DNA of 36,554 nucleotides. It comes from an uncultured Lachnospiraceae bacterium. Lineage in GTDB: Bacteria > Bacillota > Clostridia > Lachnospirales > Lachnospiraceae. The notes beneath the pieces are model-generated. The model was not told the DNA's origin. It ran no database searches and saw nothing but the letters and a program-made list of their open reading frames with translations. The position numbers were made by a program, and so were the translations under genes. The stretch lies in the NCBI GenBank assembly GCA_947384285.1, contig CANDGI010000031.1:1-36554 (forward strand), read 5' to 3'. This document shows, one piece after another, positions 15,632 to 35,054 of the stretch; within the stretch, counting starts at the first letter, position 1; every line of letters starts with the position of its first letter.

Positions 15632-16131
15632 AGCTTACGTACCAAAAACTTCTGAAAGGCATCCACGCCCACCCCTACATAAAATACTCCGGCTATCATG
15701 GCTGCGCCGATCTGCATGGGCATCCTGCCAAGCTCTGAAACCTTCATAGGCCCCATAACCGTAAGGCCGATGGCCCATCCGCAAAGCCAGGCAGGCGTAA
15801 AGAACACCTTCGGCAAGGTTTCCCCGATCAGGACTGCAATTCCCCCAAGGACAAACAGGGTCAGGTACAATTCCACATTGGAAGGAAGGGGAAGCTTCTC
15901 CATCACAAAAATCGCAGCCACCGCCCACACATCCCCGGCAAGAAAACCTGCCGCAATTTTCAGCGCATCCTTTTGGTTGTTTCCATTTGCAACATAAAGG
16001 CCGGCGCAAATCAGTGCCACCGCGCCCACCTCGACGCCCAGATAGGGCGCCGCCACCGCCCAGATGGGCGGCAGAAGAGCAATGCCAAGCGCCAGGGTCA
16101 GCATATTCACTTTCTTTTGTCTCTTCTCCAT
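15628..16131 (-). CDS. DUF1097-family membrane protein, paralogue 1
   Basis: A 167-residue integral membrane protein with about five or six hydrophobic helices and little soluble sequence. The pattern (LPPIWAVAAPYLGVEVGAV, then a glycine-rich AGFLAGDVWAVAA, then GETLPKVFFTPAWLCG) fits the DUF1097 family, whose function is not known to me. The ATG at 16131 has GGGAG nine bases upstream; an open extension of twelve codons overlaps the butyrate kinase gene. It lies between butyrate kinase and the MBL-fold hydrolase. A second member occurs at 26416-26961 in the partner operon, so the family probably has a direct part in the pathway, for example small-acid movement across the membrane. Confidence 0.75.
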   Translation of the reverse strand: MEKRQKKVNMLTLALGIALLPPIWAVAAPYLGVEVGAVALICAGLYVANGNNQKDALKIAAGFLAGDVWAVAAIFVMEKLPLPSNVELYLTLFVLGGIAVLIGETLPKVFFTPAWLCGWAIGLTVMGPMKVSELGRMPMQIGAAMIAGVFYVGVGVDAFQKFLVRKL

Positions 16132-16156
16132 ATGCTTTGTCTCCCTTTCTTTCGCC

Positions 16157-17266
16157 TTACCAGTCAAAGCCGCTCCAGACCGGCTTTCCGGTGTATTCCT
16201 TTAATGCTTCTTCTCCCTTCAGCACCCGGATTGCCCCTGCAGCCATGGCTTCCATCTCGAACTCTCCCGGATAGGCGGCAACCTTCGCAATGAAAGAACA
16301 GCTTTCCGTAATCTGCGCCACCAAATCCTCGCTATGTACCATGCCGCCGCCAAGAAGAATGCCGTCCACCTTTCCATGCAGGACAGCAGCCATGGCGCCG
16401 ATGCCTTTTTCAATCTGGTAAATCATTGTATTCCACAGCATTTTTGCATATTCATCCCCGTTTTCTGCCCGGTTTGTCAGTTCCACCGCATCGGAAATCC
16501 CCACATGGTTCACAAATCCCCCGGTTCTGGTACACAGTTTTTTCACATCCGCTGCATCCAGATGGTTTTTTTCCATATAATCCAACAGATCTGAAACGGC
16601 TACGCTTCCGCATCTTGTAGGAGCCATAGGCCCCTCGCCGCCTACGATGTCATAGCCGTCTACCATTCTTCCCTGGCGGTGGGCAGATATGGAAATCCCT
16701 CCGCCAATATGGCACACCACATAATTGCAGCTCTCATACTCCTTCTTCAAGACATGCTTGCTGTGGCGGATGGCTGTTTCCTTCAGATTCAGCGCATGTA
16801 AATGAACCATCCGGTTTACGCCCCGGATCCCTGTCATCCTCGCTAAATCCTGGAGCTCATCTACATCCGGAGGATTGACCACCATTGCCTTTGCGTGATA
16901 CTTCACTGCAAATTCATTGGCAAGCTGGGAGCCCAAGGCAGCTGGGTGAATCACCCCGTTAGCACAGTTTTCTGCATGGTCAAGCATCAATTCCGATACC
17001 CCATAGGTTCCCCCTTCCATAGCCAAAAGCCCGCCGCCCCTGCCCACGAACACGTCGATATCCTCCAGGGAAACCCCTGCCTCCTCCAAAAGCTTTAAAA
17101 TCATATCCCGGCGGTAGGGAAGCTGATCTGGTATGGTCTGGTATCTGGCAAGCTCACTGGCGTCATGGGATACATTTTTTGTGTAAATGCATGCATCATC
17201 CTCAAATAATGCTATCTTTGTAGAAGTAGAGCCAGGATTAATCGCTAATACTTTATAATGTTCCAT
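16157..17266 (-). CDS. buk: Butyrate kinase family acyl kinase
   Basis: A 369-residue kinase of the acetate/butyrate kinase family. VLAINPGSTSTKIALFED is the N-terminal phosphate-binding signature, GGGLLAMEGGTYGV and HIGGGISISAHRQGRMVDGYD are typical of butyrate kinase, and GVDGILLGGGMVHSEDL-like sequence (KVDGILLGGGMV) lies near the C-terminus. It makes ATP from an acyl phosphate and releases the acid. It follows the phosphotransacylase gene by nine bases. This pair is not in the thl-hbd-bcd operon but in a catabolic operon with a different thiolase, so the acyl group may be something other than butyryl (propionyl, isobutyryl or another short chain). Confidence 0.92.
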   Translation of the reverse strand: MEHYKVLAINPGSTSTKIALFEDDACIYTKNVSHDASELARYQTIPDQLPYRRDMILKLLEEAGVSLEDIDVFVGRGGGLLAMEGGTYGVSELMLDHAENCANGVIHPAALGSQLANEFAVKYHAKAMVVNPPDVDELQDLARMTGIRGVNRMVHLHALNLKETAIRHSKHVLKKEYESCNYVVCHIGGGISISAHRQGRMVDGYDIVGGEGPMAPTRCGSVAVSDLLDYMEKNHLDAADVKKLCTRTGGFVNHVGISDAVELTNRAENGDEYAKMLWNTMIYQIEKGIGAMAAVLHGKVDGILLGGGMVHSEDLVAQITESCSFIAKVAAYPGEFEMEAMAAGAIRVLKGEEALKEYTGKPVWSGFDW

Positions 17267-18601: not shown

Positions 18602-19015
18602 CTAGCCTTCATCCAGGTCGAACACCACGGTTTTAAAACCGCCTTCCCGCTCAAAGATGGCGGCGTGGCAGTTTAGGGGAAGCTTTTCTGACAGCTGAGC
18701 CCGGTTCTTTTTGCTGATGCCCCGGACAACGGCATTCAGCCTTGTCCCTTCCTCTAATTCCACCTCGCCATATGCATATTTCCCTAATTTCTTATATTCC
18801 GGTTTGGAAGAAAGAGCAGCCGGAAGAACAATGGAATGCAGCTTTGCTTTTCCGCTGATTTCATACCATTCCGTCTCATAACTGCCGCATGCATTGCAGG
18901 CATATACCGGCGGAAACTCCACATTTCCGCATTCCGGGCATTTCCGCCCAAGAAATTTTCCTTCCTCCAGCCCTTCATAAAACCTCTGGACTACCTTTTC
19001 CAACTTAATCCCCAT
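18602..19015 (-). CDS. DUF35 Zn-ribbon/OB-fold acyl-CoA-associated protein
   Basis: A 137-residue protein. Residues about 1-20 form a helix (VVQRFYEGLEEGKFLG), followed by a rubredoxin-like zinc ribbon with two CxxC pairs (CPECGN and CNACGS) and an OB-fold (LHSIVLPAAL, YAYGEVELEEGTRLNAVV, CHAAIF). DUF35 proteins bind SCP-x/thiolase or HMG-CoA synthase partners and help hold or channel the CoA thioester, as in archaeal thiolase complexes, PhlB of the Phl acyltransferase and ChsH2 of steroid degradation. The ATG at 19015 has AGGAGG seven bases upstream, 11 bases after the thiolase stop, so the two probably form a complex. Confidence 0.88.
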   Translation of the reverse strand: MGIKLEKVVQRFYEGLEEGKFLGRKCPECGNVEFPPVYACNACGSYETEWYEISGKAKLHSIVLPAALSSKPEYKKLGKYAYGEVELEEGTRLNAVVRGISKKNRAQLSEKLPLNCHAAIFEREGGFKTVVFDLDEG

Positions 19016-19026
19016 GCTTATGCCTC

Positions 19027-20372: not shown

Positions 20373-20475
20373 AGTATAAAAAACTTTTTTCCTCATTTCA
20401 TCATGTCCTCATCCAATCTTTTCCTCTGACAGCCTGATTTTTTGTGCCCACGCACAATGCCCTTTGCGATATAAT
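20373..20475. promoter_or_regulatory. Divergent thiolase/pucR control region with palindromic operator
   Basis: A perfect 16-bp palindrome, TTGTGC-CCAC-GCACAA, lies at 20442-20457. On the plus strand it covers the -35 position of a perfect TATAAT (20470-20475), the likely promoter of the PucR-type gene, with no -35 consensus. On the minus strand the thiolase operon has TATACT (20373-20378), also with a poor -35, and the operator begins 64 bases upstream. The same operator occurs 65 bases from the -10 of the flavoprotein operon (28043-28058). TGAGGACA (minus strand, 20404-20411) also recurs there. I infer binding by the adjacent PucR-type protein. Confidence 0.75.
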
Positions 20476-20585
20476 AGAAGCGTAAAATTTTCACTCCCGC
20501 ATCACGTTCTTACCGCCAGCGCCAAAACAAGGCAAGGCCATTGGAACTGTTAAAAAGCAACTGCAACATGAAAGGAACATACAAG

Positions 20586-22133
20586 ATGGAATATATACAG
20601 CTTCTGAACCGTTTAGAGGAAAACGGATACCACTGCCGTGCATATGGAAACCAACTGCTGAACCCTGACTTAATCCATGCCCGCATCCTGACCGGGGAGC
20701 ATCAGGCCTATGCCCCATCCACACTGTATCTTACCTCCCCGGACCTGCTTCCAGACCCTGGGATGGACACTCCTATCATCCTATTCTGTCTGGGACAGGC
20801 TGCAGACTTTCATATTTACGAGAACAGTGTGTTCCAGGTGGTATCCTTTGCCCCTGGGATTTCCCATGGGGAACTGCTGAATTTTGTTTTGGAAAGCCTG
20901 ACGGAAATCCAAAAAATCACTGCCGGCATGCACATTCTGGTCAATGCATTGTTTTCTGGAAACGGGCTGCAATATCTGATTGACACTGCCACCGATTTAT
21001 TTGGAAACCCGATTTATGTCATTGACCTGCAATACAAATACCTGTCCATGTCCGCAGGCATTATGCCGGAAAATATGTTTTTCAACCAGGAAAGCTCCAC
21101 AGGCTATATCGGGGAAAGGGGGATTCAATATATTTGCAAAAACAAACTGGATGAAAAAGTCCATCGCACCAACCATGCTTACTATCATTTCAATCAATTA
21201 ATCCAAAAAGGAATGCTCATAGACACGGTTGAAATCCAGGGAATCGTGGTTGGGCATGTCATGATGCTGGAATCCGAGCACGCTTTTTATGATTTTGACA
21301 AAGAATTTTTCCATCGGTTCAGCAAACTGATTTCCATGGAGCTGCAAAAGGACTCCTCCTTCCGAAGAAACAAAGGCGTCATGTACTCCTATTTTCTCAT
21401 TGACTTAATCAGGCATCCAGGGAAAAATACAAATGGCATCCGGGAGCGGCTGAAGGTGATGGGCTATAACCCAAAAGAGACTTTTTACATTATTGCAATT
21501 CCAACCGTAGGCTACAGCACCTCCGATTTAAAAATGGAAGTGATTTTGGAGCAGATGCGCTTCCTGTTATCCGGCAGCATTTACGTCATCTATGAAAATA
21601 CCATTGTGTTTCTCATCAGCCGCAACTTAAACCAGCACTTAAGCGATTATGAGATGCACCAGCTGGAGCTCTACCTGAAGGCAAACAGCCTAAAGGCTGG
21701 CATCAGTAACTTTTACCGCGACCTGGAGGATACCGCCTATTTCTACCAGCAGGCAGTGTCCGCTGTACTTTTGGGCATAAAGCTGGACGCTTTCAGCTCC
21801 ATTTACTATTTCAGCGATTACTATCTCTACAAAATGTTAGAAACCATGGAGAAGGAAGGCCCGCAAATCCAGTTTCTCATCCAGCCTGGGCTGATGAAGC
21901 TTTATTTTTACGACCAGGAGCACGGTACAGATTTCATGGATACTATCATAGAATTTTTAAAGCATCCCGGCCATCCTGCCAGCATTGCAGATGCATTGCA
22001 CATCCACAAAAATACATTGCTGTACCGCATGGGCAAAATCAAGCAGATTACAGACTGCAGCTTTACCGAAGGGGAAGAGTTCATGAATTATAATCTGTCT
22101 GTTAAGATTATGAAATATCTGCATCTGATTTAA
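20586..22133 (+). CDS. PucR/CdaR-type transcriptional regulator
   Basis: A 515-residue regulator. The N-terminal ~120 residues form a PucR-like domain (LENGYHCRAYGNQLL onward), followed by a GAF-like region (FGNPIYVIDLQYKYLSMSAG) and a C-terminal PucR helix-turn-helix of the HTH_30 type (SIADALHIHKNTLLYRMGKIKQI). Such regulators respond to small metabolites and control purine, sugar-acid or amino-acid catabolism. The ATG at 20586 has AAAGGAAC nine bases upstream; two earlier ATGs in frame lack ribosome sites. It is divergent from the thiolase operon, convergent with the flavoprotein operon, and the shared operator suggests it activates both and controls itself. Confidence 0.88.
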   Translation: MEYIQLLNRLEENGYHCRAYGNQLLNPDLIHARILTGEHQAYAPSTLYLTSPDLLPDPGMDTPIILFCLGQAADFHIYENSVFQVVSFAPGISHGELLNFVLESLTEIQKITAGMHILVNALFSGNGLQYLIDTATDLFGNPIYVIDLQYKYLSMSAGIMPENMFFNQESSTGYIGERGIQYICKNKLDEKVHRTNHAYYHFNQLIQKGMLIDTVEIQGIVVGHVMMLESEHAFYDFDKEFFHRFSKLISMELQKDSSFRRNKGVMYSYFLIDLIRHPGKNTNGIRERLKVMGYNPKETFYIIAIPTVGYSTSDLKMEVILEQMRFLLSGSIYVIYENTIVFLISRNLNQHLSDYEMHQLELYLKANSLKAGISNFYRDLEDTAYFYQQAVSAVLLGIKLDAFSSIYYFSDYYLYKMLETMEKEGPQIQFLIQPGLMKLYFYDQEHGTDFMDTIIEFLKHPGHPASIADALHIHKNTLLYRMGKIKQITDCSFTEGEEFMNYNLSVKIMKYLHLI

Positions 22134-22148
22134 TCCCCTCCGGCACTG

Positions 22149-22207
22149 TTCCCTGCCTGGCAGGGAATCGGGCGCTGCTGGTGTTTTGCTTTTTGCAAGA
22201 TTTTTTT
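22149..22207 (+). terminator. Possible terminator after the PucR-type gene
   Basis: A perfect short hairpin TTCCCTGCC-T-GGCAGGGAA (22149-22167) starts 16 bases after the stop, and a weak TTGC/GCAA stem (22186-22198) is followed by seven T residues (22201-22207). Neither alone is a textbook terminator, but they occupy the convergent gap. Confidence 0.45.
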
Positions 22208-22212
22208 ATCAT

Positions 22213-22788
22213 CTATTTCCGTTTGCAGGGAATCGGGCGTTTCGGGCATTTTGGCTTTTCCGCCCCTGCACGGACAACGGCATCTTCCTCACATGCTTCC
22301 ATGCAGGCGCCGCATTGGATGCATTCTTTCTGATCTATCACATGTACAAACTTCGCTTTCCCTAAAATTGCTTCGTCCTCACATGCATCCATACAATCTC
22401 CGCAGCCGGTGCATCGGCCTGCAAGTATGTGGTAAGTCATAAACTTTTGGCAAACCGAAGCCCTGCACCCTTTCTTTGCGATATGATCTTCAAAATCCGC
22501 CCGGCAGGTATCAATCGCCGTAAGGACGGCAGCTCCAATCTCTTCCCCTGTCTCGCAAAGGGACTGGCTTTTCATCATCTCACAAAGCTCCTGCATCTGT
22601 GCCAGGTCAGAGCTTTTCCCTTTTTTCTCAGTAATGTCCCCAAGAATCATTTGAAGCTGTGTCACTCCCTCATATCCAAAGACGCATTTTCCGCATTCAG
22701 TACATTCATTTTTGGAAACTGCCTGATACAAAGTATCTACCACACACTCTGTGCTTTCCAGGTTTTTTATTTTCTCTAACATACTCAT
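22213..22788 (-). CDS. NuoF C-terminal-like iron-sulfur protein with two 4Fe-4S ferredoxin motifs
   Basis: A 191-residue soluble iron-sulfur protein. Residues about 28-110 (CTECGKCVFGYEGVTQL, DLAQMQELCEMMKSQSLCE, TAIDTCRADFEDHIAKKGC) resemble the N3-cluster domain at the end of NuoF/HydB-type subunits, but the FMN- and NADH-binding and SLBB parts are absent. The C-terminal part has two ferredoxin motifs, CTGCGDCMDAC and CIQCGACMEAC. The start at 22788 has GGGAGG ten bases upstream. It follows the NuoG/GltD fusion gene by 15 bases and is the last gene of the operon. I infer that it wires electrons between that fusion protein and the FAD-dependent reductase. Confidence 0.82.
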   Translation of the reverse strand: MSMLEKIKNLESTECVVDTLYQAVSKNECTECGKCVFGYEGVTQLQMILGDITEKKGKSSDLAQMQELCEMMKSQSLCETGEEIGAAVLTAIDTCRADFEDHIAKKGCRASVCQKFMTYHILAGRCTGCGDCMDACEDEAILGKAKFVHVIDQKECIQCGACMEACEEDAVVRAGAEKPKCPKRPIPCKRK

Positions 22789-22803
22789 TCCACAGGCACC
22801 TCC

Positions 22804-24894
22804 CTAGTACTCATTCCACAGCTTCGGCCTGTGAAGCAGAAGCCGCAAATCGCATTGCAGGCACCGGCTTGCCTCACATTGTGCCTGCTGGCAGGTCATC
22901 GGCTGTTCCACAAGCGAAAAATCCTTTGTCCGCAGGGATGCGTCCCTCACCTCAGGTTCCACCCTTGTCAAACCTGCGAATCCCTGATCCTGCCCCAGAT
23001 AGGGGGACGGCGCTTCTTCGTCCAGAAGCTTCTCACTGATATCCCCGTCTCCGCCCAGATATACATCCATCTGCTGGGCTGCCTTTCTCCCAGCGGCAAT
23101 TGCTGCGATAACAGACTTTGTCCCTGTCACCACATCTCCTGCTGCAAATACGCCTTCCATACTGGTTTTCAGGTTCTCGTCCACCTGGATGTATGGTCCA
23201 TGGGCCAGGGCAAGTTCCATCTCCTCCGTCCCCTCCGGCTTTTGTCCCACAGCAAAAATTACATTGTCTACCGCAATCACCTGATTGCTGCCTTCCACCA
23301 GCTCCATCACTGCCTTGTGGTTTTCATCGAAGTAGAATTTGTCAATCTTTTGGATTTCCACGCCTTCTGCCTTGCCAGTCCCGATAATTTTCAGGAAAGA
23401 GTGGGCTGGATGGAGAATGATGCCCTCCTGGCGGCCTTCTTCAATCTCATCTGGAGTGGAGGTCATCTGCTCCTCACTTTCCAGGCAGGCCATATGAACC
23501 TCTTTTGCTCCCAGCCGGACCGCAGTCCTGGCGCAGTCATATGCCACGTTGCCGCCTCCCAGCACCATGACCTTCTCCCCTACCGGAAGGGGCGTCCCCT
23601 TCCTTGCATGTTTCAGGAAATCCGCGTTTACATATACGCCGGGAAGATCGTTTCCTTCCATGGGAAGCCTGGTTCCCTGGTGGGTTCCGATGGAAACAAG
23701 TACGGTATCATATCCCTGGCCGAGAAGCTCTCTGGGACTGGCTGGGGCAGCTCCCGTTTTCAAGGTAAATCCTGCTTCCAGCATCGTATTGATTTCCTTA
23801 TCCAGCAATTCATCTGGCAGCCGGTAGGCCGGTATGCCATAGCGGCACTGTCCCCCTGCCTTCTCATTTTTCTCAAAGACAGTCACTTCATGTCCTTTTT
23901 TTGCCAGGTAATATGCCGCGGTCAGCCCTGCAGGCCCTGCGCCGATCACCGCTGCCTTCTTTCCGGCAGCGTCCTCTTTGCGGACGCGGGCTTTCCAGGC
24001 TCCGCTGTCATTTGCAGCTGCAAAACGTTTTAATCTGCAGATGGAAACAGGGGCATTCAACTCCCCTCGCTTACATTCTTCCTCACATGCATGGGTGCAG
24101 ATGCTTCCAAGGGTTTCTGGGAACGGAACCTTTTCCCGCACCACTGCTGCCGCCTTATCAAAGTCTCCTTTTTTGATATAGCGGATATACCGGGGAATAT
24201 CAATGTGCGCCGGGCATGTGCTTTTGCATGGCACAACATTTTCTGCGTAGGAACGCTCTTCCTTCATGATCTTTACCTGATCCATGATAGATCCGGTGGG
24301 ACAAACCTCAATGCATGCCCCGCAAAAACGGCACCCGGCATCTGCCAGGGATCTGCCCTCTGGAATGCCCGCCCGTATGCCTGCCGGGGTCTTGATATAG
24401 TCCAGCACCTTTACGCCCCGAAGCTCCTGGCAGGCGCGGATACATCTTCCGCAGCGTACACATCTGGTGAACAGATGGGATACCAAAGGATTGCTGTCAT
24501 CATTTGCCACGCTTCTGGATTTTTTTCTCCAGCCTTCCGGGCTGACGCCCATATACTGATACATAGACTGTAGCTCGCATTTTCCATATTTCGGGCATCC
24601 GGTACAGTCTGCTGGATGGGATGCCAATATCAATTCCATAGCCATCTTCCTTACTTTTGACGACTCCGGGCCGTTTACGGTAACCTCCATCCCCTCCTGC
24701 ACCTGTGTTTTGCAGGCAGGAACCGCCCCCTGCTGCCCTGCAATTTCCACGGAACACAGCCGGCATCCGCCTTTTGCCTCTAAATCCGGGTGGCTGCACA
24801 GGTGCGGGATAAAAACTCCTGCCTCCAATGCCGCATCTAATATATTCTGGCCTTCCCTTGCTTCAATTTCTTTTCCATCAATTGTAATCTTCAT
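22804..24894 (-). CDS. NuoG-like iron-sulfur / GltD-like NAD(P)H oxidoreductase fusion
   Basis: A 696-residue electron-transfer protein. Domains in order: a 2Fe-2S ferredoxin (about 1-75; C in PHLCSHP, CRLC, PACKT); a NuoG-type His-Cys 4Fe-4S segment (SHPADCTGCPKYGKCELQ); two 4Fe-4S motifs (CVRCGRCIRACQ, CRFCGACIEVCPTGS, to about 215); a GltD-type Fe-S region (CPAHIDIPRYI, CTHACEEECKRG); an FAD fold (AVIGAGPAGLTAAYYLAKKG, about 315); and an NAD(P) fold (VMVLGGGNVAYDCARTAVRLG, about 445), ending in SRCLQCDLR. Similar layouts occur with formate dehydrogenase, hydrogenase and Nfn-type enzymes. The ATG at 24894 is preferred over one four codons earlier. Likely function: passing NAD(P)H electrons to the reductase encoded just upstream. 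Confidence 0.86.
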   Translation of the reverse strand: MKITIDGKEIEAREGQNILDAALEAGVFIPHLCSHPDLEAKGGCRLCSVEIAGQQGAVPACKTQVQEGMEVTVNGPESSKVRKMAMELILASHPADCTGCPKYGKCELQSMYQYMGVSPEGWRKKSRSVANDDSNPLVSHLFTRCVRCGRCIRACQELRGVKVLDYIKTPAGIRAGIPEGRSLADAGCRFCGACIEVCPTGSIMDQVKIMKEERSYAENVVPCKSTCPAHIDIPRYIRYIKKGDFDKAAAVVREKVPFPETLGSICTHACEEECKRGELNAPVSICRLKRFAAANDSGAWKARVRKEDAAGKKAAVIGAGPAGLTAAYYLAKKGHEVTVFEKNEKAGGQCRYGIPAYRLPDELLDKEINTMLEAGFTLKTGAAPASPRELLGQGYDTVLVSIGTHQGTRLPMEGNDLPGVYVNADFLKHARKGTPLPVGEKVMVLGGGNVAYDCARTAVRLGAKEVHMACLESEEQMTSTPDEIEEGRQEGIILHPAHSFLKIIGTGKAEGVEIQKIDKFYFDENHKAVMELVEGSNQVIAVDNVIFAVGQKPEGTEEMELALAHGPYIQVDENLKTSMEGVFAAGDVVTGTKSVIAAIAAGRKAAQQMDVYLGGDGDISEKLLDEEAPSPYLGQDQGFAGLTRVEPEVRDASLRTKDFSLVEQPMTCQQAQCEASRCLQCDLRLLLHRPKLWNEY

Positions 24895-24909
24895 ATTGGC
24901 TACCATTCC

Positions 24910-26400
24910 TTAGTATTCAAAATCATCCAGCTCTGCCGCCGCATTCTCTCCAGCAATACGTCCGCTGTTTAAGCAAAATCCCATGGTGTTCCCTGACAAA
25001 ATAAAGGGATAGCTGTCTCCGAAAATATTGCATGCGTCCGTTCCCACGCAATACAGTCCTGGAATCACCTTGGCCTCCTGGGTAAGAACCTGGGTCTTGT
25101 GGTTGATTTTCACGCCGCCCAAGGAACCATAAGCTCCTACATTCTGCCTGCAGCAATAGAACGGGGCTTTTTCAATCGGCTGCATGTAACGCCTGTCTTT
25201 CTCAAAGATCTCGTCAAAACCGCTGGCGCACATTTCATTGTACTCTTCCACCTGCGCCTTCAGCCCTTCCACATCAATCCCAGCCTTTTGAGCCAGCTCT
25301 TCAATGGTGTCTGCCTGTGCAATCGGCTCGTAGCCATCTGCCAAATCTCTTTCCCACTGCTCGTCAAAATGATCATACAAGTCATGGGGATGTACATGGG
25401 AGACAATGTCCGGACCCTTTTTCTTATATTTTCTTAAAAGCTTGCTGTCAAAAATGGAAAAGGCGATGCTTCCCGGCTGTGCTGTGATGGCATTTCCTGT
25501 AAAAGTAGTATTGCCAATCTGGTCTTCCGGCATAAACCGTTCTCCGTTCCTGTTCACCCACAGGCAAGGCTGGCGGAAGGCTCCGTCCAGGATAAAATGA
25601 TTCATGTTGTCTGGAAGCTGGTACATCAATTCCATGGTGCATGGCTCTTTCCCTGCCCCTGCTTCCCATGCCATTTTCAATCCATCGCCCTTCATTCCCG
25701 GAATTGCAAAATTGAAAATTGTCTTTCCGAATTCATAGCCTGTTTCCTCCTGAATCATCTTGGGGTTATCTCCAAATCCTCCCGTTGCAATAATCACAGA
25801 GCTGGCCCTTGCTTCGATTTCTTCCCCGTCTTTTCCCTTTGCCAGGACGCCCACTGCTTTTCCCTCTTCCATGATAATCTTGGAAACCGGGGTTTCAAAC
25901 AAAAATTCCACGCCCAGCTCTACTGCATGCTCTGTCATTTTCTTGGTCATAGAGGTTGCCGCCCGGGGGCCTGGCACTCCGCCGCCTTCTGGTTTGCATA
26001 CATGCCAGGTAAACTCCCCATCGGAATATGCCCTGGTATCCTCCGGCGCGCTGAAAGCCCGCTGTACGCCTACAAATTCCACGCCCATATCCATCAGCCA
26101 GTCAATGGTGTCCCCGGACTTAAAATAGTAATCCCTTACCATACGCGCATCCACACGGTAATGGGTAAAATACATATGTTTGCGGAACGCCTCTCCCGGG
26201 GTCAGGGAAATCATGTGCTCCCTCTGTATCCTGGAGCCAACGCCCAGAGGACCCATTCCCATGTTGGCTGCCCCTCCGGTGGTGCTTGCTTTTTCAAAGA
26301 CCAGCACCTGCGCTCCGTTTTCTGCTGCCGCAATGCTCGCCGCAAGGCCGGATAACCCTGCTGCCACTACAATTACATCTGCTTTCATCTGTTTCATCAT
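24910..26400 (-). CDS. FAD-dependent reductase of the fumarate reductase / 3-ketosteroid dehydrogenase group
   Basis: A 496-residue cytoplasmic flavoprotein (FAD_binding_2 type), lacking signal peptide, haem motifs and FMN-binding domain. The dinucleotide motif reads VVAAGLSGLAASIAAAENG, with alanine for the first glycine of GxGxxG. Other marks are FEKASTTGGAANMG, SSVIIATGGFGDNPKM, and a C-terminal cap PGLYCVGTDACNIFGDSYP and GNTMGFCLNSGRIAGENAA. Relatives reduce or desaturate activated C=C bonds (fumarate, urocanate, cinnamate, 3-ketosteroids, bile-acid intermediates). AGGAGG lies four bases before the first ATG and seven before the second (26397); either could be used. The neighbouring Fe-S proteins probably feed it electrons. 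Substrate unknown. Confidence 0.85.
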   Translation of the reverse strand: MMKQMKADVIVVAAGLSGLAASIAAAENGAQVLVFEKASTTGGAANMGMGPLGVGSRIQREHMISLTPGEAFRKHMYFTHYRVDARMVRDYYFKSGDTIDWLMDMGVEFVGVQRAFSAPEDTRAYSDGEFTWHVCKPEGGGVPGPRAATSMTKKMTEHAVELGVEFLFETPVSKIIMEEGKAVGVLAKGKDGEEIEARASSVIIATGGFGDNPKMIQEETGYEFGKTIFNFAIPGMKGDGLKMAWEAGAGKEPCTMELMYQLPDNMNHFILDGAFRQPCLWVNRNGERFMPEDQIGNTTFTGNAITAQPGSIAFSIFDSKLLRKYKKKGPDIVSHVHPHDLYDHFDEQWERDLADGYEPIAQADTIEELAQKAGIDVEGLKAQVEEYNEMCASGFDEIFEKDRRYMQPIEKAPFYCCRQNVGAYGSLGGVKINHKTQVLTQEAKVIPGLYCVGTDACNIFGDSYPFILSGNTMGFCLNSGRIAGENAAAELDDFEY

Positions 26401-26415
26401 GCTACCTCCTGGTTT

Positions 26416-26961
26416 TTATTCTTCTTGGCCCATAATGGCTTTCATTGTTTTTTCTTTTCCAAAAACTGCAGAACAGACTGCCGTTCCACTAACCACCAAC
26501 GCAATACTTAAGATCATCCCGTAACAGAAAAATCCAATTAAATGAACCGGCGTCAAATCAACTTCCAGCATAAATACAAAAAATGTAGTGCTCATGCCAA
26601 GGAACAGGCATGGAACATTCCCAAAAACTGTCTTTACCAGAAATCCCTCATGGATGGTCAGCACAAGGAAAATAATGAGAATCGTGGGAACAATGTTCAC
26701 AACCATCTCTGGAGCAAATTTTCCAAAAATCCCCTGGACAATACCGTTGGCATGCGCCCATGCTACACCGCAGATATAGCATACAACCATGGACGGAATT
26801 TTCTTAAAATCAGCGCCTAATGCAAAAAACAGAAGCAATGGGAAAAAGAGCATCCACAGATACTGCCCAAATCCTGTTATTGCAAAGACCTGCATCAAAG
26901 CTGTAAGAACCACCGCCCCTGTAAAACTTTGTACCATTTTTATTTTCATTCTTTCACTCAT
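26416..26961 (-). CDS. DUF1097-family membrane protein, paralogue 2
   Basis: A 181-residue membrane protein with about five or six hydrophobic helices. The central VVCYICGVAWAHANGIVQG and VFGNVPCLFLGMSTTFF correspond in position to the GFLAGDVWAVAA and GETLPKVFFTPAWLCG stretches of the protein at 15628-16131, so both look like DUF1097 members that have diverged. AGAGGA lies eight bases before the ATG. It is between the flavodoxin-fold gene and the FAD reductase gene, with 15-18-base gaps. One family member in each of two co-regulated operons argues for two related membrane roles, perhaps substrate entry and product exit, or a hetero-oligomer. Confidence 0.75.
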   Translation of the reverse strand: MSERMKIKMVQSFTGAVVLTALMQVFAITGFGQYLWMLFFPLLLFFALGADFKKIPSMVVCYICGVAWAHANGIVQGIFGKFAPEMVVNIVPTILIIFLVLTIHEGFLVKTVFGNVPCLFLGMSTTFFVFMLEVDLTPVHLIGFFCYGMILSIALVVSGTAVCSAVFGKEKTMKAIMGQEE

Positions 26962-26979
26962 AGCATTTTTCCTCTTAAA

Positions 26980-27924
26980 CTAAATGGTTTTGAACTGCTT
27001 TTCTTTATACTTCGCCAGCTTCTCCTGGACAATTTTACGGTTTTCGGGATTGCTATAGAATCCCCCCTGGGTCTGCGCAATCTCTTCCAGATGCTTTGCC
27101 CGGCCAGCCACGGTGGTTCTGTCTTTCAAAAGGCCGTTTTCCTGGATAACAAACTTCCATTTTCCATCCTCAGTCTGCTCCAGCGTTCCGCCTGCACCGC
27201 ATACCTGGCATTCAATAGGATAGTGAAGCCCGTCCCACTGCTCCTCGCCTAACACCAGCGCATTGGAGTGGCAGTTGGGGCACCAGCCCATATCCTCGTC
27301 TCCAAGCCATTTCCGCTCCTCTGCCGGGGCAGCTGCTGCCGTCATAATGTTTTCCCCAAGCTTTCTTGCCCGAGCAATCAAATCATCATCCAACAAACAT
27401 TGCGCCATGCCTGGAACCCTGGTTGCCAGAATCATATCAACCACCTTCATATCTGTGGTAAACATGGTGGCCTGCAAGCCTTCCAAAGCCATAGACTGCC
27501 AGGAACGGGTGGAACCTCCTACTGCAATCAGCCCGGCAACCCTGTCCTTATGCTCAATCGCGCCTATTGTTTCCAAAAAAGCCGTCTCATAGCTCAAGCT
27601 TCTCTGGGCAAATGTAAGATACGCGCTTGCTGGCATTAAATCATATGTAGGCACAGAATAAATGACGGCGTCCTGGGTTAGCATAACGTCCATAATCTTT
27701 TTCTTTGCATCTTCTGCATCCAGCACACATCCCACATTCTTTCCCTGGGACATGCCCATGGTGCAGGAAGTGCATCCGGTACAATCCAGGATTTTATAAT
27801 CCTTTAAGTTAATCATAGTGACCTCGGCGCCCGCCTCCTCGCAGTACATCAATGCCTCTTTTAGCAATATTTCATTGTTGCTGTTCTTTCTTCCCGCTGC
27901 AATTCCCATTACTTTTACTGGCAT
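26980..27924 (-). CDS. Flavodoxin-fold NAD(P)H:FMN reductase with C-terminal zinc ribbon
   Basis: A 314-residue protein. Residues 1-190 are an NADPH-dependent FMN reductase/flavodoxin-like domain: VMGIAAGRKNSNNEILLKEAL (phosphate loop), CTGCTSCTMG, AVIYSVPTYDLMPASAYL and GLIAVGGSTRSWQSMALEG. Typical members end near residue 200. Here about 110 extra residues carry WCPNCHSNALVL and IECQVCGAGG, two CxxC pairs that should bind zinc or a cluster. The ATG at 27924 has GGAG seven bases upstream; a twelve-codon extension is rejected. It is the first gene of the five-gene operon. I infer that it supplies or exchanges reduced flavin, or acts as an electron carrier for the flavoprotein reductase. Confidence 0.8.
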   Translation of the reverse strand: MPVKVMGIAAGRKNSNNEILLKEALMYCEEAGAEVTMINLKDYKILDCTGCTSCTMGMSQGKNVGCVLDAEDAKKKIMDVMLTQDAVIYSVPTYDLMPASAYLTFAQRSLSYETAFLETIGAIEHKDRVAGLIAVGGSTRSWQSMALEGLQATMFTTDMKVVDMILATRVPGMAQCLLDDDLIARARKLGENIMTAAAAPAEERKWLGDEDMGWCPNCHSNALVLGEEQWDGLHYPIECQVCGAGGTLEQTEDGKWKFVIQENGLLKDRTTVAGRAKHLEEIAQTQGGFYSNPENRKIVQEKLAKYKEKQFKTI

Positions 27925-27972
27925 AGCAATTCTCCTTTTCTTTTGCTTCTCGCTTTTCATTTCTGTATGATA

Positions 27973-28058
27973 ATTATATTAGATTGACACTTTTTTAACA
28001 TCGTGTTCTGTCCTCAAATTTGGCGGAAATCTTTTTTGGATTTTGTGCCAGTACACAA
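27973..28058 (-). promoter_or_regulatory. Promoter and operator of the flavoprotein operon
   Basis: A perfect TATAAT lies on the minus strand at 27973-27978, but no good -35 box is found, as expected for an activated promoter. The operator TTGTGC-CAGT-ACACAA (28043-28058) begins 65 bases upstream. It matches the 20442-20457 operator at TTTTGTGCC and CACAA, 14 of 18 positions. TGAGGACA (28009-28016, minus strand) is also shared between the two regions. Confidence 0.72.
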
Positions 28059-28138
28059 AGTGTTATTCGGCAGCCCTTTTATACTGCAGCGAATATTTTT
28101 TATTTGGACGCGGAGGCCAATGCAAAAGCTCCCTTCCT

Positions 28139-28260
28139 CACGCAAACTGGGCAGCGTTCCGGCGGACTAACTGCTAACTGCGGCTAAGGAAGCCAGGAGA
28201 TCCTTCCTTCCTAAGTCGCAGTTAGCAGTTAGTCCGCCGGAACGCTGCCCAGTTTGTGTG
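28139..28260. repeat. 122-bp near-perfect palindrome
   Basis: Outer arms 28139-28182 and 28217-28260 are 44 bases each and complementary except for one position. The symmetry continues inward through 28183-28192 and 28207-28216 (8 of 10) and the AGGA/TCCT core at 28195-28204, centred between 28199 and 28200. Homology of the arms stops sharply at both ends. It has no open frame and no T-run. It lies between ylmC and the flavoprotein operon promoter; the remaining bases of the 27925-28357 gap (28059-28138 and 28261-28357) show nothing I recognise. It could be a palindromic mobile element, a strong RNA hairpin ending ylmC transcripts, or an assembly artefact. Confidence 0.9.
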
Positions 28261-28357
28261 CCAAAGAGCCATCCTGCCTTTCCGTCCGTACTCGCATAAT
28301 AAAAGTCCACTGTAAGTGCCAGCGCGTAGATTTTCTTCCGAATCCATGCTTATCGCT

Positions 28358-28673: not shown

Positions 28674-29033
28674 TTATAATACGTTCTTTGTAGCTATAAT
28701 GTCCACGCCTGTGCCTGCCACATCGCTTAGGATAACGTCTCCGATATGTACAGGTGCCTGAACCTTTACGCCCTTTAACTGTTTCATGATGTCAAAGATT
28801 TTTCCTTTCGGAATATCTTCTTTTGTTTTTACAGAAACTGCTGCAAGGCTTCCGCCTTCCACGATGACAGAGCTTGTAACGATTCTGGTTGGGTTTGTCA
28901 CTTCTTTTCTTGCATATACGTCACCGCGCTTGCAGGTATTGCCGGTAACGCTTACTACTTCCCCATTGTCCATTTCTACCTTTAACGGGCAGCCCATTGG
29001 GCATCCGATACAAATTAATTCTCTTGTTTCCAT
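28674..29033 (-). CDS. DUF1667 protein, probable third subunit of an anaerobic glycerol-3-phosphate dehydrogenase-like complex
   Basis: A 119-residue cysteine-rich protein. ELICIGCPMGCPLKVEMDNGEV and GNTCKRGDVYA give four conserved cysteines typical of DUF1667, which may hold an iron-sulfur cluster. The ATG at 29033 has GGAGGCG upstream and lies only four bases after the stop of the FAD-oxidoreductase gene. DUF1667 genes commonly follow glpA/glpB-like genes in clostridia, where this small protein appears to replace the membrane-linked GlpC. The electron acceptor is unknown. Confidence 0.85.
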   Translation of the reverse strand: METRELICIGCPMGCPLKVEMDNGEVVSVTGNTCKRGDVYARKEVTNPTRIVTSSVIVEGGSLAAVSVKTKEDIPKGKIFDIMKQLKGVKVQAPVHIGDVILSDVAGTGVDIIATKNVL

Positions 29034-29037
29034 AATT

Positions 29038-30309
29038 TTACGCCTCCTCAATCTTTACGGTAATCTGAGACAGATCTGAAAATGCTGCTAATTCTTCTTT
29101 TTTCAATACGACTTCTTCCATTTCTCCTGGCGCTACAACCGGGCGTTTCCTGTGAATGATACGCTGGTCATTCAGATATACAGACACATAGCAGTTCTTA
29201 TATACATCCCCTACGCGGAAACGCACCGTATGTTTCTCATCCATACGATCGGGATTGATGGTTTTGGGTACCGTGTAGCGTGCGCCTTCGGTAGCGACAA
29301 TGGGAATATCCTTCGCATTGCTTTCTTTATGTTTCGCGCCGTTCAATACATATTCAGCCGCATGCTTTCCAGCCGCAGATGCTTCTTCGGAAACAAAATC
29401 CACCAAGTCATGTACATGAAGCACATTGCCGCAGGCAAATACGCCTTCCACATTGGTTTCCAGGCATTCATTGACCAATGGGCCGGAGGTAACAGGGCTC
29501 ATTTCAACATTCAGGCTTCTGGATAATTCATTTTCCGGAATCAATCCGCAGGATAACAGCAATGTATCACAGGTATAGCGCTCTTCGGTTCCAGGAACCG
29601 GCCTTCTGTCTGGGCCTACCTCTGCAATCGTGATTGCTTCCACTCTTTCCTTGCCTTCAATATCCACAACGGTATGGCTTAATTTCAGCGGAATTCCATA
29701 GTCATCCAGACACTGGACAATATTTCTCTTTAATCCGCCGGAATAAGGCATCAATTCAGCTACAACCTTCACCTTTGCGCCTTCTAATGTCATTCTTCTT
29801 GCCATAATAAGCCCGATATCGCCGGAACCAAGGATTACAACCTCACGGCCAGGCATATATCCTTCCATATTCACAAGACGCTGCGCTGTACCAGCAGAAT
29901 AAATACCAGCGGGGCGGTATCCAGGAATATTCAAGGCGCCTCTGGAACGCTCTCTGCAGCCCATAGCAAGAATAATTGCCTTAGCCTGGATTTCAAACAT
30001 GCCTTCCTCACGGTTCATAGCTGTTACCACTTTACTGGGTGCAATATCCATAACCATGGTATTTAACTTATATTCGATTTTTTCATCTTTTAACTGGTCG
30101 ATAAACCTTCCTGCATATTCCGGGCCTGTCAGCTCTTCTTTGAATGTGTGAAGGCCGAATCCATTGTGGATACACTGATTCAGGATACCGCCCAGCTCCT
30201 TGTCTCTTTCTAATACTAAAATAGATTCTACTCCGCTTCTCTTTGCTGATACGGCTGCTGCAAGTCCAGCAGGGCCGCCTCCTATTATAACAATATCATA
30301 ATTTAACAT
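29038..30309 (-). CDS. FAD/NAD(P)-dependent oxidoreductase, GlpB-like partner
   Basis: A 423-residue pyridine nucleotide-disulfide-type flavoprotein. IVIIGGGPAGLAAAVSAKRSG binds FAD, VVILGSGDIGLIMARRMTLEG binds NAD(P), and TNVEGVFACGNVLHVHDLVD is the second FAD motif. LGGILNQCIHNGFGLHTF is typical of the subgroup paired with GlpA-like dehydrogenases and DUF1667 proteins. It starts 25 bases after the glpA-like stop. With its neighbours it probably moves electrons from glycerol-3-phosphate oxidation to NAD(P) or a soluble carrier. It is not homologous throughout to E. coli GlpB, so no symbol is given. Confidence 0.85.
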   Translation of the reverse strand: MLNYDIVIIGGGPAGLAAAVSAKRSGVESILVLERDKELGGILNQCIHNGFGLHTFKEELTGPEYAGRFIDQLKDEKIEYKLNTMVMDIAPSKVVTAMNREEGMFEIQAKAIILAMGCRERSRGALNIPGYRPAGIYSAGTAQRLVNMEGYMPGREVVILGSGDIGLIMARRMTLEGAKVKVVAELMPYSGGLKRNIVQCLDDYGIPLKLSHTVVDIEGKERVEAITIAEVGPDRRPVPGTEERYTCDTLLLSCGLIPENELSRSLNVEMSPVTSGPLVNECLETNVEGVFACGNVLHVHDLVDFVSEEASAAGKHAAEYVLNGAKHKESNAKDIPIVATEGARYTVPKTINPDRMDEKHTVRFRVGDVYKNCYVSVYLNDQRIIHRKRPVVAPGEMEEVVLKKEELAAFSDLSQITVKIEEA

Positions 30310-30334
30310 TTTTTTCCCTCCTGATTGGTCCCAA

Positions 30335-31771
30335 CTATATTCTATCTTTATTAATTCCTACAATGATCTTGGAGTTTCCGCCTGACTTGGTAATCTCGGA
30401 CGGATCTACGCCCCGTTCTCTTGCAAGGATTTCGATGGTTCTTGGAGAACAGAAACCAGACTGGCAGCGTCCCATTCCTGCCCTGGTGCGGCGCTTTACG
30501 CCGTCAAGGGATTTTGCACCCAGAGGACGTTTGATGGCATCAATGATTTCGCCTTCTGTAATCATTTCGCATCTGCAGATAATGTTTCCATATGCCGGGT
30601 TCTCTTTAATCAGAGCCGCACGTTCCTCATTGCTCAATGTCTTTGGATCTAAGATACCTTTTCTGGTTCCAACAAAGCCGGGGTCTTCTTCTGCGTTGGT
30701 CAGATCTTTCACAATTTCTGCTACCATTTTTCCAATTGCCGGAGCGCTGGTCAATCCAGGAGATTCAATTCCTGCGCAGTCAATGAAGCCTTTTGCATCT
30801 TCCAATTCGCCAATATAGAATTCATGTCCATCCTCATGGGCGCGCAATCCTGCAAAAGAAGTGATAACCTGACGGATGGGAAGGCCTTTTACGGTAGTTC
30901 CCGCTTTATTAATTAATTCGTCGATTCCCTCCTGGGTGGTGTTGGTTCCTTCTTTATTCTCAATATCAATTGCCGTAGGCCCTACCAGCGTGTTGCCATG
31001 GACAGTGGGAGATACCAAAACGCCTTTTCCAAATTTGCTTGGAAGCTGGAAAATCGTGTGTGTTACAAATCCTTCGGTAGAACGGTCTAACAAGCAGTAG
31101 TCTCCACGTCTTGGAGTGATGTGCAATTTCTTATCGCTTACCATATTGTGGAACTTGTCTGCATAAACCCCTGCAGCATTTACCACATACCTGGTCTCAA
31201 TTTCACCCTGGCTGGTCTTAACCACCCAGTTATCGCCCTTTTTCTCCAATCCTGTTACCTCGGTATCAAATTTGAATTCCACCCCATTGACTGCTGCATT
31301 TTCGGCAAACGCAATATTCATTCCAAAGGGGCATACAATACCGCCCGTAGGCGCATACAATGCTGCTACAGCTTCATCAGAAATATTCGGCTCCAGCTTT
31401 ACAAGCTCTTCCCTGTCAATAATGCGAAGATCCTTCACACCATTCTTAACCCCTCTGTCGTAGAGCTCCTGGAGATTTGGTTTCTCTTCCTCATGAAGGC
31501 ACACAACCAGGGAACCATTATTTTTATAATGGAAATCCAGCTCCTTGGAAAGCTCTTCCATCATCTGGCTGCCTTCCACGTTCAATTTTGCCATGAGGGA
31601 GCCTGCTGCCGCATCAAAGCCTGCATGTACAATCGCGCTGTTTGCTTTGGATGTCCCGCAGCATACATCTTCTTCTTTTTCCACTACGCAGACATTCAGT
31701 TTGTATCTGGAAAGTTCCCTAGCGGAAGCAGCTCCTGATACACCTGCACCAATAATTACTACATCATACAT
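30335..31771 (-). CDS. glpA: Glycerol-3-phosphate dehydrogenase, GlpA-like, with BFD-type 2Fe-2S domain
   Basis: A 478-residue enzyme oxidising glycerol 3-phosphate to dihydroxyacetone phosphate. Residues about 1-370 are a DAO-type FAD domain (VVIIGAGVSGAASARELSRY, ANSAIVHAGFDA, FAGLRAHEDGHEFYIG). The C-terminal part has a BFD-like [2Fe-2S] domain with CRCEMITEGEII and GMGRCQSGFCSPR. The ATG at 31771 is preferred; an in-frame GTG three codons earlier would leave the ribosome site too close. It is the first gene after a 342-base structured gap behind glpF, so its expression may be set separately. An L-2-hydroxyglutarate oxidase-like activity is possible from fold, but the glpKF context supports glycerol 3-phosphate. 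Confidence 0.87.
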   Translation of the reverse strand: MYDVVIIGAGVSGAASARELSRYKLNVCVVEKEEDVCCGTSKANSAIVHAGFDAAAGSLMAKLNVEGSQMMEELSKELDFHYKNNGSLVVCLHEEEKPNLQELYDRGVKNGVKDLRIIDREELVKLEPNISDEAVAALYAPTGGIVCPFGMNIAFAENAAVNGVEFKFDTEVTGLEKKGDNWVVKTSQGEIETRYVVNAAGVYADKFHNMVSDKKLHITPRRGDYCLLDRSTEGFVTHTIFQLPSKFGKGVLVSPTVHGNTLVGPTAIDIENKEGTNTTQEGIDELINKAGTTVKGLPIRQVITSFAGLRAHEDGHEFYIGELEDAKGFIDCAGIESPGLTSAPAIGKMVAEIVKDLTNAEEDPGFVGTRKGILDPKTLSNEERAALIKENPAYGNIICRCEMITEGEIIDAIKRPLGAKSLDGVKRRTRAGMGRCQSGFCSPRTIEILARERGVDPSEITKSGGNSKIIVGINKDRI

Positions 31772-32113
31772 ATTGTTCACCCATCCTTTTCTTACTCTTT
31801 TTTATTTTTTACTGTCTGTTTCTAAAAACATAGACAGATATTTTCCATTCTCATGCCGCCGAACCGGCTTTCACTTTTTCTTCTCTTCCTTATTTCCAAA
31901 CCACGCATATTTTTCTACTTATCAGAAATTGCAAATCTGTTTCTGATAAGCAGAAAAGCAACAATTACACTCCCCTTTCCGGGGAATGTAATCATTGCCT
32001 CTCTGTTATCTCTGCAATGCCATATTTACAACCTGTGCTTTCACCCAACTGCATCCCCCTATGAAAGGATGGCCATGCGGCCTGTCACACGATAGGCTGC
32101 GTATCATGGAAAT
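31772..32113 (-). other. Structured 342-base gap between glpF and glpA; possible GlpP-responsive leader
   Basis: No gene is seen. In transcription order the gap holds the repeat hairpin at 32074-32107; a 12-bp stem with a GGAAA loop (around 31971-31999) followed a few bases later by TTTT; an 11-bp inverted repeat (TTTCTGATAAG and its complement, 31919-31950); a small GCCGGTTCGGC stem; and a bulged CTGTCT/AGACAG stem before the glpA ribosome site. Such mutually exclusive-looking stems ahead of a GlpA/GlpD-type gene recall the GlpP-dependent antitermination leader of Bacillus glpD. No clear promoter was found inside it. Confidence 0.45.
32074..32107 (-). repeat. Post-glpF hairpin, copy 2 of a repeated element
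   Basis: GCCTGTCACACGATAGGCTG at 32080-32099 matches the element after hbd (1423-1442) at 17 of 20 positions, loop included, and both are bracketed by CATG sequences. It begins seven bases after the glpF stop on the transcribed strand. No T-run follows. Confidence 0.65.
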
Positions 32114-32818
32114 TTACCATGGAATCACTGAGTACAAACCAACTGCGATAAGAGCGCCGATGATTGGTCCAACCAATGTAACGATTCCATATCCCCAGTT
32201 AGAGCTTCCTTTTCCGCTGATTGGAAGAACTGCATGTGCCAGACGAGGACCAAGGTCACGGGCCGGGTTCATTGCATATCCTGTCAATCCGCCTAATGAC
32301 ATACCACAGGAAACGATAATTCCAAATACCAACAAGTTATTTACGCCAGCAGGTGCTTCTGCCGGGATACCTTTGATTGCGAATACCAATACGAAGGTTG
32401 CAACAACTTCTGCAAAAATGTTAAGTGGCAAATTCGGAATAGATGGTCCGCAGGAGAATACGCCTAACTTCGTTCCTGCTTCTTCTGTTGCATCAAACTG
32501 ATCCTTGAATGCAATCCATACAATCACCGCTCCAACAAATGCGCCTGCAAACTGTGCAATAATATATCCAGGCACCAGACTCCAAGCCATGCTTCCATCT
32601 GCTGCCAGAGCAATCGTCAAGGCCGGATTAAAATGAGCGCCGGATGCTGCGCCGAAAATGAACGCTGGCAGCATAACTGCAAGACCCCAGGCAATTGTAA
32701 TTTGGATGGAACCTGCACCTTTCATTCCTGATTTGTTCAAAGTTACGTTAGCAACAACGCCATCTCCTAAGATAATCAACATCATTGTTCCTACAAATTC
32801 TGCTATATATGGTAACAT
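32114..32818 (-). CDS. glpF: Glycerol uptake facilitator (aquaglyceroporin)
   Basis: A 234-residue MIP-family channel with six membrane helices. Both pore motifs are present: SGAHFNPALTIAL and GYAMNPARDLGPRLAH; the aspartate after the second NPA-type motif (NPARD) is the residue characteristic of glycerol facilitators. It allows passive entry of glycerol, trapped by GlpK. It starts 39 bases after glpK with an AGAAAGGGGAA site. Length is slightly short for GlpF (often 240-280) but no motif is missing. Confidence 0.95.
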   Translation of the reverse strand: MLPYIAEFVGTMMLIILGDGVVANVTLNKSGMKGAGSIQITIAWGLAVMLPAFIFGAASGAHFNPALTIALAADGSMAWSLVPGYIIAQFAGAFVGAVIVWIAFKDQFDATEEAGTKLGVFSCGPSIPNLPLNIFAEVVATFVLVFAIKGIPAEAPAGVNNLLVFGIIVSCGMSLGGLTGYAMNPARDLGPRLAHAVLPISGKGSSNWGYGIVTLVGPIIGALIAVGLYSVIPW

Positions 32819-32857
32819 TTCGTGTTCCCCTTTCTGCCTTCTATCTGCTTTTGTCTA

Positions 32858-35054
<2,197 letters not shown>

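Follow-up and report, generated by a model that had tools for sequence, protein, structure and literature searches.

A palindrome at a fixed distance from two promoters suggests joint control of neighbouring acid-metabolism operons by a PucR-type regulator in a Lachnospiraceae genus

Introduction

Do two neighbouring operons that carry a similar palindrome upstream of their promoters answer to the regulator encoded between them? This question is raised by a 36,554-nucleotide stretch of DNA from an uncultured Lachnospiraceae bacterium (contig CANDGI010000031.1 of GenBank assembly GCA_947384285.1; hereafter the window), which is contig C31 of a 3.23 Mb assembly, here called G000, that is 83% complete. 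A gene for a PucR-type regulator lies there between an operon headed by a thiolase-like gene and one headed by a flavoprotein gene of the FMN_red family (Table 1). The original prediction, made from the window's letters alone, was that both operons share an operator at the same distance from the -10 box and form one regulon with the regulator. We consider it probable that the palindromes are operators of the PucR-type regulator, that this protein is an autoregulated activator with a CodY-like sensor, and that it binds both sites and co-regulates both operons.

Results

On re-reading, the letters and coordinates reported earlier for the palindromes and -10 boxes were both correct, and the comparisons across genomes described below support both a shared operator at a fixed distance from the -10 and a single regulon around the PucR-type gene. 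The distances first given, 64 and 65, are near-equal as claimed but are differences between coordinates; the thiolase operon has 63 intervening bases between its distal operator and the -10, and the flavoprotein operon has 64. The extended sites do agree at 14 of 18 positions once the 20440/28041 side is lengthened by two bases. The -35 boxes are indeed poor, the best matches at a 17-base spacing being ATGAAA (4/6) and ATGTTA (3/6), and the first operator does lie over the -35 position of the regulator gene, whose TATAAT starts 12 bases past it here and in three congeners. The regulon of thirteen genes becomes one of fourteen, both operons plus the regulator, because a gene for an 80-aa carrier-protein-like product had been left out. 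A further proposal, that TGAGGACA is an element common to both promoters between operator and -10, we rejected: it is present at both (20404-20411 and 28009-28016, minus strand) but at 25 and 30 bases from the -10, it is not kept in the three congeners, and it falls in two different registers inside the second, degraded operator described below.

Close counterparts of the regulator (80-93% identity) were found in three of the 28 congeners searched (G015, G022 and G023), and in all three both operons adjoin it. In aligned promoters TTGTG-N6-CACRA is kept at both promoters in all four species with the locus, at 63 bases from the -10 for the thiolase operon and 64 for the flavoprotein operon, the flavoprotein -10 of G023 having decayed to TATCCT. 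Two other features of these loci may be recorded here. In G023 (locus L047) both operators are intact while the regulator is split, through a broken gene or a sequencing error. Just upstream of the flavoprotein operator the window carries an inverted repeat (28087-28312) with 112-nt arms, 74% complementary, and a 2-nt gap; the three congeners align poorly there, and it is possibly a small mobile element.

Does the operator follow the regulator beyond the genus? Among 397 genomes, a sample of the family's species, 26 had a homologue of the regulator at E 1e-30 or better; the 40 homologue rows from this search, the three congeners and G037 made up 44 regulator loci, and five fetched later brought these to 49 (803 kb). 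The relaxed motif lay upstream of the regulator at 10 of 11 loci with at least 40% identity (the split gene of G023 included), one of three with 30-40% and three of 30 with less than 30%. In the other two loci of the middle class the site stands at the target promoter, matching at 12/12 in G342 and 11/12 in G119. All 21 occurrences of the strict motif TTGTGYN4RCACRA in the 49 loci fall at a regulator or target promoter, a figure that describes concentration within loci selected for the regulator and not genome-wide specificity. The link persists whether the divergent operon is of the thiolase, S15-type hydrolase or cupin kind, with S15-hydrolase/pta/buk in G196 and G216, S15/buk in G275 and cupin/dehydrogenase in G162.

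When 33 chosen regulators were placed on a tree, the labels of the 15 operator-bearing ones (G342 and G119 being counted by their target promoters) needed three changes as against 11.2 when shuffled, and none of 500 shuffles was as low. All 15 operator-bearing regulators have the recognition helix HKNT; of the remaining 18, 15 have HKST, HRST or HRNT, and three (G342b, G275b and G073) have HKNT but no site. Different 16-bp palindromes precede other PucR paralogues: TGTTA-N6-TAACA goes with HKST helices and TTCAACATTTGTTGAA with HRST, and the pairing of palindromes with helix signatures hints at a readable recognition code. Palindromes of the form 5-N6-5 occur in 31 of the 44 upstream regions (shuffle mean 16.85, and at most 23 in 20 shuffles); the 44 regions show raised counts for other gaps too (half-length 6 with gaps 3, 4 and 10), and a palindrome architecture common to all 44 homologues is only suggestive. 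We also observed an S15/PepX-type hydrolase gene in place of the thiolase and DUF35 genes, with the same regulator and the same site, at L086:7005-8753, L093:7389-9152 and L094:10923-12683, the assignment being by Pfam for L086 and by clustering for L093 and L094.

The distance to the -10 is held across these loci. Of 13 target-facing operators, eight have TATAAT or TATACT at 63/64 bases, three at 22, and two, that of G275 and the regulator-proximal copy in G394, at neither; in 2000 single-base shuffles the highest count at any neighbouring offset pair was three. When 63-base spacers were compared, 27 of 28 pairs were 21-57% identical and one 75%, and thus the length has been held while the sequence drifted. 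Two of the five loci fetched afterwards had the operator, at 64 and 63; the same pattern gave none at G555 or at either G996 locus.

The motif by itself is less telling. Exact matches to TTGTGC-N4-RCACAA are confined to these two places in the 3.23 Mb assembly, allowing at most one mismatch gives 32 strand rows as against six for the reversed control, and the strict motif is found at one further place, within an open reading frame (ORF). In the window alone, with two mismatches allowed, 14 matches were found (shuffle mean 6.69), a weak excess that 4 of 100 shuffles reached. We do not use a bare genome scan for the looser TTGTG-N6-CACRA as evidence, as three of the four genus genomes have about as many matches as reversed-control hits (16 against 15, 13 against 17 and 10 against 7; 16 against 5 in G000). 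Given the weak excess in the window and these near-control counts, the strength of the case is in conservation and spacing and not in the bare motif. We claim no regulon members among 15 further rows in seven genomes, of which eight are inside ORFs (L150, L152, L153, L154, L157, L159, L161 and the extra G000 site in L163) and seven intergenic (L151, L155 twice, L156, L158, L160 and L162). An unbiased scan of the 397 genomes for the operator followed after 63-64 bases by a -10 gave 15 hits (reversed control, three): seven beside a PucR homologue, one the window's own flavoprotein promoter and seven elsewhere. At L182 (G415:C65:184827-184912) an operator-like palindrome has its -10 at 64 and is accompanied by a second site of 8/12; there is no PucR homologue within 1.5 kb, and it may be a distant regulon member or chance.

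Is there only one operator at each promoter? When scored against the strict motif, the 16 bases starting 38 before the -10 averaged 8.69 of 12 over 16 promoters (all-offset mean 3.85) and 8.38 over eight less redundant ones, and none of 5000 shuffles reached 8.69 or 8.38 at any offset. This offset is the top one separately in the genus thiolase, genus flavoprotein and other promoters. The second, proximal operator lies 41-42 bp downstream of the distal one and abuts the -35, with which it has its final base in common at the thiolase promoter. G342, G394, G415 and G119 have a strong operator (11-12 of 12) at this proximal position, 22 bases from the -10. One lineage thus has its operator centred near -42, and the other has it near -84 plus a weak copy near -42, as counted from the -10 box and not from a mapped start site; the two centres are 42 bp, or four helix turns, apart. 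We take the -42 and -84 positions to correspond to class II and class I in the terms used for CRP. In G555, a genome of another family, pta is preceded by a 10/12 site at -42. The vpr operon there has a site of 11/12, with TATTAT as a -10-like hexamer 22 bases away, and a 9/12 copy 41 bp upstream. These sites are weaker evidence because the scan that found them yields 69 sites of at least 8/12 with a -10-like hexamer in 753 kb, both strands.

What kind of protein is the regulator? Its start was chosen on a conserved ATG and a Shine-Dalgarno-like AAAGGA. It matches the C-terminal helix-turn-helix (HTH) family HTH_30 (E 2.2e-13; 50.2 bits, cut-off 27) and the GGDEF-like family PF17853 (31.4 bits, cut-off 24.5); no match to the PUCR domain PF07905 was found at E 0.001. 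Its CdaR/AdeR-like NCBIfam matches are weak, and with the AdeR model NF058503 it scores 57.3, below the equivalog threshold of 700. Since PF07905 was not found and a CodY-like GAF domain stands in its stead, the protein is a member of the wider HTH_30 group (CdaR/AdeR-like) and not a PucR in the narrow sense. A sequence search for solved structures gave none at E 0.001. An AlphaFold2 model built on 15 homologues (mean pLDDT 83.7, pTM 0.54), from which the domain borders were read, predicts a small N-terminal domain, a CodY-like GAF, a GGDEF-like domain and the HTH; the modelled middle domain matches the CodY GAF 2gx5 (target-normalised TM 0.71-0.73), and the modelled C-terminal half matches the folds of 9f80 and 3onq.

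The extents of the two operons are drawn from gene order because a terminator scan did no better than shuffles. The acyl carrier protein-like gene is present at 15 of 18 related loci (queries: the window's and G196 sequences). The FAD_binding_2 reductase is a relative but not a member of the VprA family, scoring 338.9 with model NF053717 where 600 is required. By inference, the gene set would combine reduction of an unsaturated acid with thiolytic release of an acyl group, perhaps via the carrier protein, to give an acyl phosphate and ATP. Hydroxycinnamate-like, other enoate and monocarboxylate compounds are candidate substrates on the strength of the VprA, MFS, butyrate kinase and thiolase matches and the literature. 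Apart from the two operons, the window holds a probable glycerol gene cluster at 28674-34486 (GlpK, an MIP channel, a relative of type 2 glycerol-3-phosphate oxidase and an NAD(P)-flavin oxidoreductase).

Table 1. Features of the window, by position; an operator is strong or weak by its match to the motif
Feature	Position	Strand	Remarks
MFS transporter, lactate/monocarboxylate kind	13557-14825	-	L-lactate MFS model NF049980 above cut-off
Metallo-beta-lactamase-fold hydrolase	14807-15631	-	
DUF1097 protein	15628-16167	-	
Butyrate kinase	16157-17266	-	TIGR02707 370.5 over 289.1, an equivalog match
Phosphate acyltransferase (pta), PF01515	17276-18298	-	ATG start would be 18277
Acyl carrier protein-like, PF00550, 80 aa	18282-18524	-	between DUF35-like gene and pta
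DUF35-type zinc ribbon/OB protein (zf-ChsH2)	18602-19018	-	start inferred from conserved part
Thiolase-like, PF22691	19027-20337	-	
Thiolase operon -10, TATACT	20373-20378	-	
Thiolase operon weak -35, ATGAAA	20396-20401	-	
Proximal weak operator, thiolase promoter, TTGGATGAGGACATGA	20401-20416	-	9/12; start 41 bp from distal start
Distal strong operator, thiolase promoter, TTGTGCCCACGCACAA	20442-20457	.	TTGTGC-N4-GCACAA; also over pucR -35 position
pucR -10, TATAAT	20470-20475	+	12 bases beyond operator in 4/4 species
PucR-type regulator	20586-22133	+	515 aa if ATG 20586 is the start; HTH_30 PF13556, PF17853, CodY-like GAF, small N-terminal domain
NuoF C-terminal-like 4Fe-4S protein	22213-22788	-	
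NuoG-like Fe-S / GltD-like flavin oxidoreductase	22804-24906	-	
FAD_binding_2 reductase	24910-26400	-	best NCBIfam is vinyl phenol reductase VprA, below cut-off
Second DUF1097 protein	26416-26961	-	
FMN_red-family flavoprotein	26980-27960	-	first in second operon
Flavoprotein operon -10, TATAAT	27973-27978	-	
Flavoprotein operon weak -35, ATGTTA	27996-28001	-	
Proximal weak operator, flavoprotein promoter, TGAGGACAGAACACGA	28001-28016	-	8/12; start 42 bp from distal start
Distal strong operator, flavoprotein operon promoter, TTGTGCCAGTACACAA	28043-28058	.	

Discussion

How does this locus compare with systems already described? Few PucR-type regulators had been studied as of 2020, and fewer with a defined operator; those studied are activators, the PucR of Bacillus subtilis being also a repressor, and about half of the family have a GGDEF-like domain (PMC7652997). 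GabR of Corynebacterium glutamicum resembles the present case in its divergent regulator gene, PucR-kind HTH and two inverted repeats upstream of the target; it is an octamer, and its two 21-bp repeats, between -87 and -23, are each bound weakly alone and strongly only together (PMC7652997). GabR differs in lacking a GGDEF-like domain and in having both its 21-bp repeats on one 55-bp fragment, whereas the present case ties two operons together and its operators are 16 bp, of unequal strength and 41-42 bp apart from start to start. There is a likeness also to AdeR and PutR of B. subtilis, for which PMC7652997 describes inverted repeats of 24 and 17 bp as sites, with catabolic targets nearby; AdeR activates ald1 from a site upstream of the ald1 promoter (PMC9894248). 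The folds described for MabR (Rv2242, PDB 9f80) and BAD_0249 (3onq) share the GGDEF-like and HTH architecture of the C-terminal half, and a palindrome fits two adjacent major grooves (PMC11617747); the N-domain of MabR is globin-like, in contrast to the middle domain here, which resembles the CodY GAF. We found no paper on this operator, nor a study of a PucR-type regulator from this gut-bacterial family, in a literature search that most subscription journals lay outside. Judged by comparison of sequences, the palindromes are a real, conserved regulon signal of a known kind of system, at which the regulator would bind and activate, with a two-operator layout that we have not seen described for this family.

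How might such a system work? A tetramer or higher oligomer of the regulator would probably occupy both sites of each target promoter, anchored at the distal site near -84. The ligand, probably a small carboxylate of this pathway, would bind in the CodY-like GAF domain, and the ligand-bound regulator would then use the proximal site, so that RNA polymerase would be recruited and both operons would rise together. At the divergent promoter, occupation of the distal site over the regulator's own -35 would give autorepression.

Would a ligand-released repressor of both operons, rather than an activator, account equally for these observations? In its favour, the -35 adjoins the proximal operator at both targets and is overlain by the distal one at pucR, and the B. 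subtilis PucR both activates and represses (PMC7652997). Nevertheless, we think a repressor unlikely: a strong site near -84 would have little effect on the target, yet the 63/64 spacing has been held while the spacer drifts, and the target -35 boxes are poor. The palindrome might instead belong to another factor, such as one of the LacI, CRP/FNR or Rex type, with the PucR-type gene simply among its targets; this is very improbable in our judgement. TTGTG-N6-CACAA does resemble the outer bases of a lac-type operator, but the distances between half-sites in CRP and Rex sites are different, the site tracks the regulator clade through genera with different target genes, and the strict motif has only its single additional place in G000, inside an ORF. 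We find it scarcely credible that the thiolase/pucR site alone functions and that the flavoprotein copy is a chance palindrome, even with FMN_red homologues in eight other genomes lacking the motif, since the flavoprotein site is kept in all four species at the 64-base spacing (with TATCCT as the G023 -10), has its own proximal copy, and has a counterpart in the 11/12 site of the G555 vpr operon.

Several observations weigh against control of both operons by the PucR-type protein through these sites. The G023 regulator is read in two frames and may be broken or misassembled. No operator was found upstream of 27 of the 30 homologues below 30% identity, at G073 (42% identity), at G037 or at either G996 homologue, nor before the regulator itself in G342, and all ten FMN_red homologues in the eight other genomes lack the motif within 1.5 kb flanks. 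G275 has the distal site without TATAAT or TATACT at 63/64. Of the 15 hits of the unbiased scan, seven fall outside both the window and the vicinity of any PucR homologue, with three hits in the control. The second operator was conceived from 14 of the 16 promoters on which it was later scored, only G482a (10/12) and G482b (8/12) not having been looked at for it before, and its shuffles were of single bases and ignored shared ancestry; in the three promoters of the -42 type that were tested, the distal copy did not stand above other offsets.

A question arising from these comparisons is "How did the flavoprotein operon come to carry this operator?" A second PucR paralogue is encoded facing the FMN_red gene in G196 and G405 (L121:6467-8002 and L149:1844-3427, respectively); it is 20-24% identical to the window's regulator, and the 16-bp palindromes there (TGTTAAAATAATAACA and TCAGACAAACGTCTGA) differ from the TTGTGC site. 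No counterpart of this second paralogue was found in the four genus assemblies, one of which (G000) is 83% complete; only the window-type regulator matched, at 19-20%. Outside this genus, control of both operons is indicated, tentatively, at the one G555 locus alone. The simplest account would be loss of the second regulator and gain of a TTGTGC operator at the flavoprotein promoter, the direction of change being the one that the present distribution suggests. A broader picture, which we offer tentatively as a possibility, is of a class of PucR-type activators that carry a CodY-like sensor and work from two operators four helix turns apart, anchoring near -84 and activating near -42. In this genus, once the second PucR-type regulator had been lost, one such activator may have taken over an enoate-reductase-like operon by operator gain; the operon would thereby be coupled to a thiolase/phosphotransacylase/kinase route, linked to a carrier protein, in which a carboxylate would serve as a source of ATP.

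For a PucR-type regulator, the analysis provides a concrete operator, a rule for its spacing, a likely signature in the recognition helix and a model of activation through two sites, and it adds a traceable case of an operon apparently passing from one regulator to another. It groups acid-metabolism genes that are uncharacterised as a set into one functional unit. In this gut-type bacterium, two neighbouring gene sets for anaerobic acid metabolism appear to be switched jointly by the regulator gene that lies between them.

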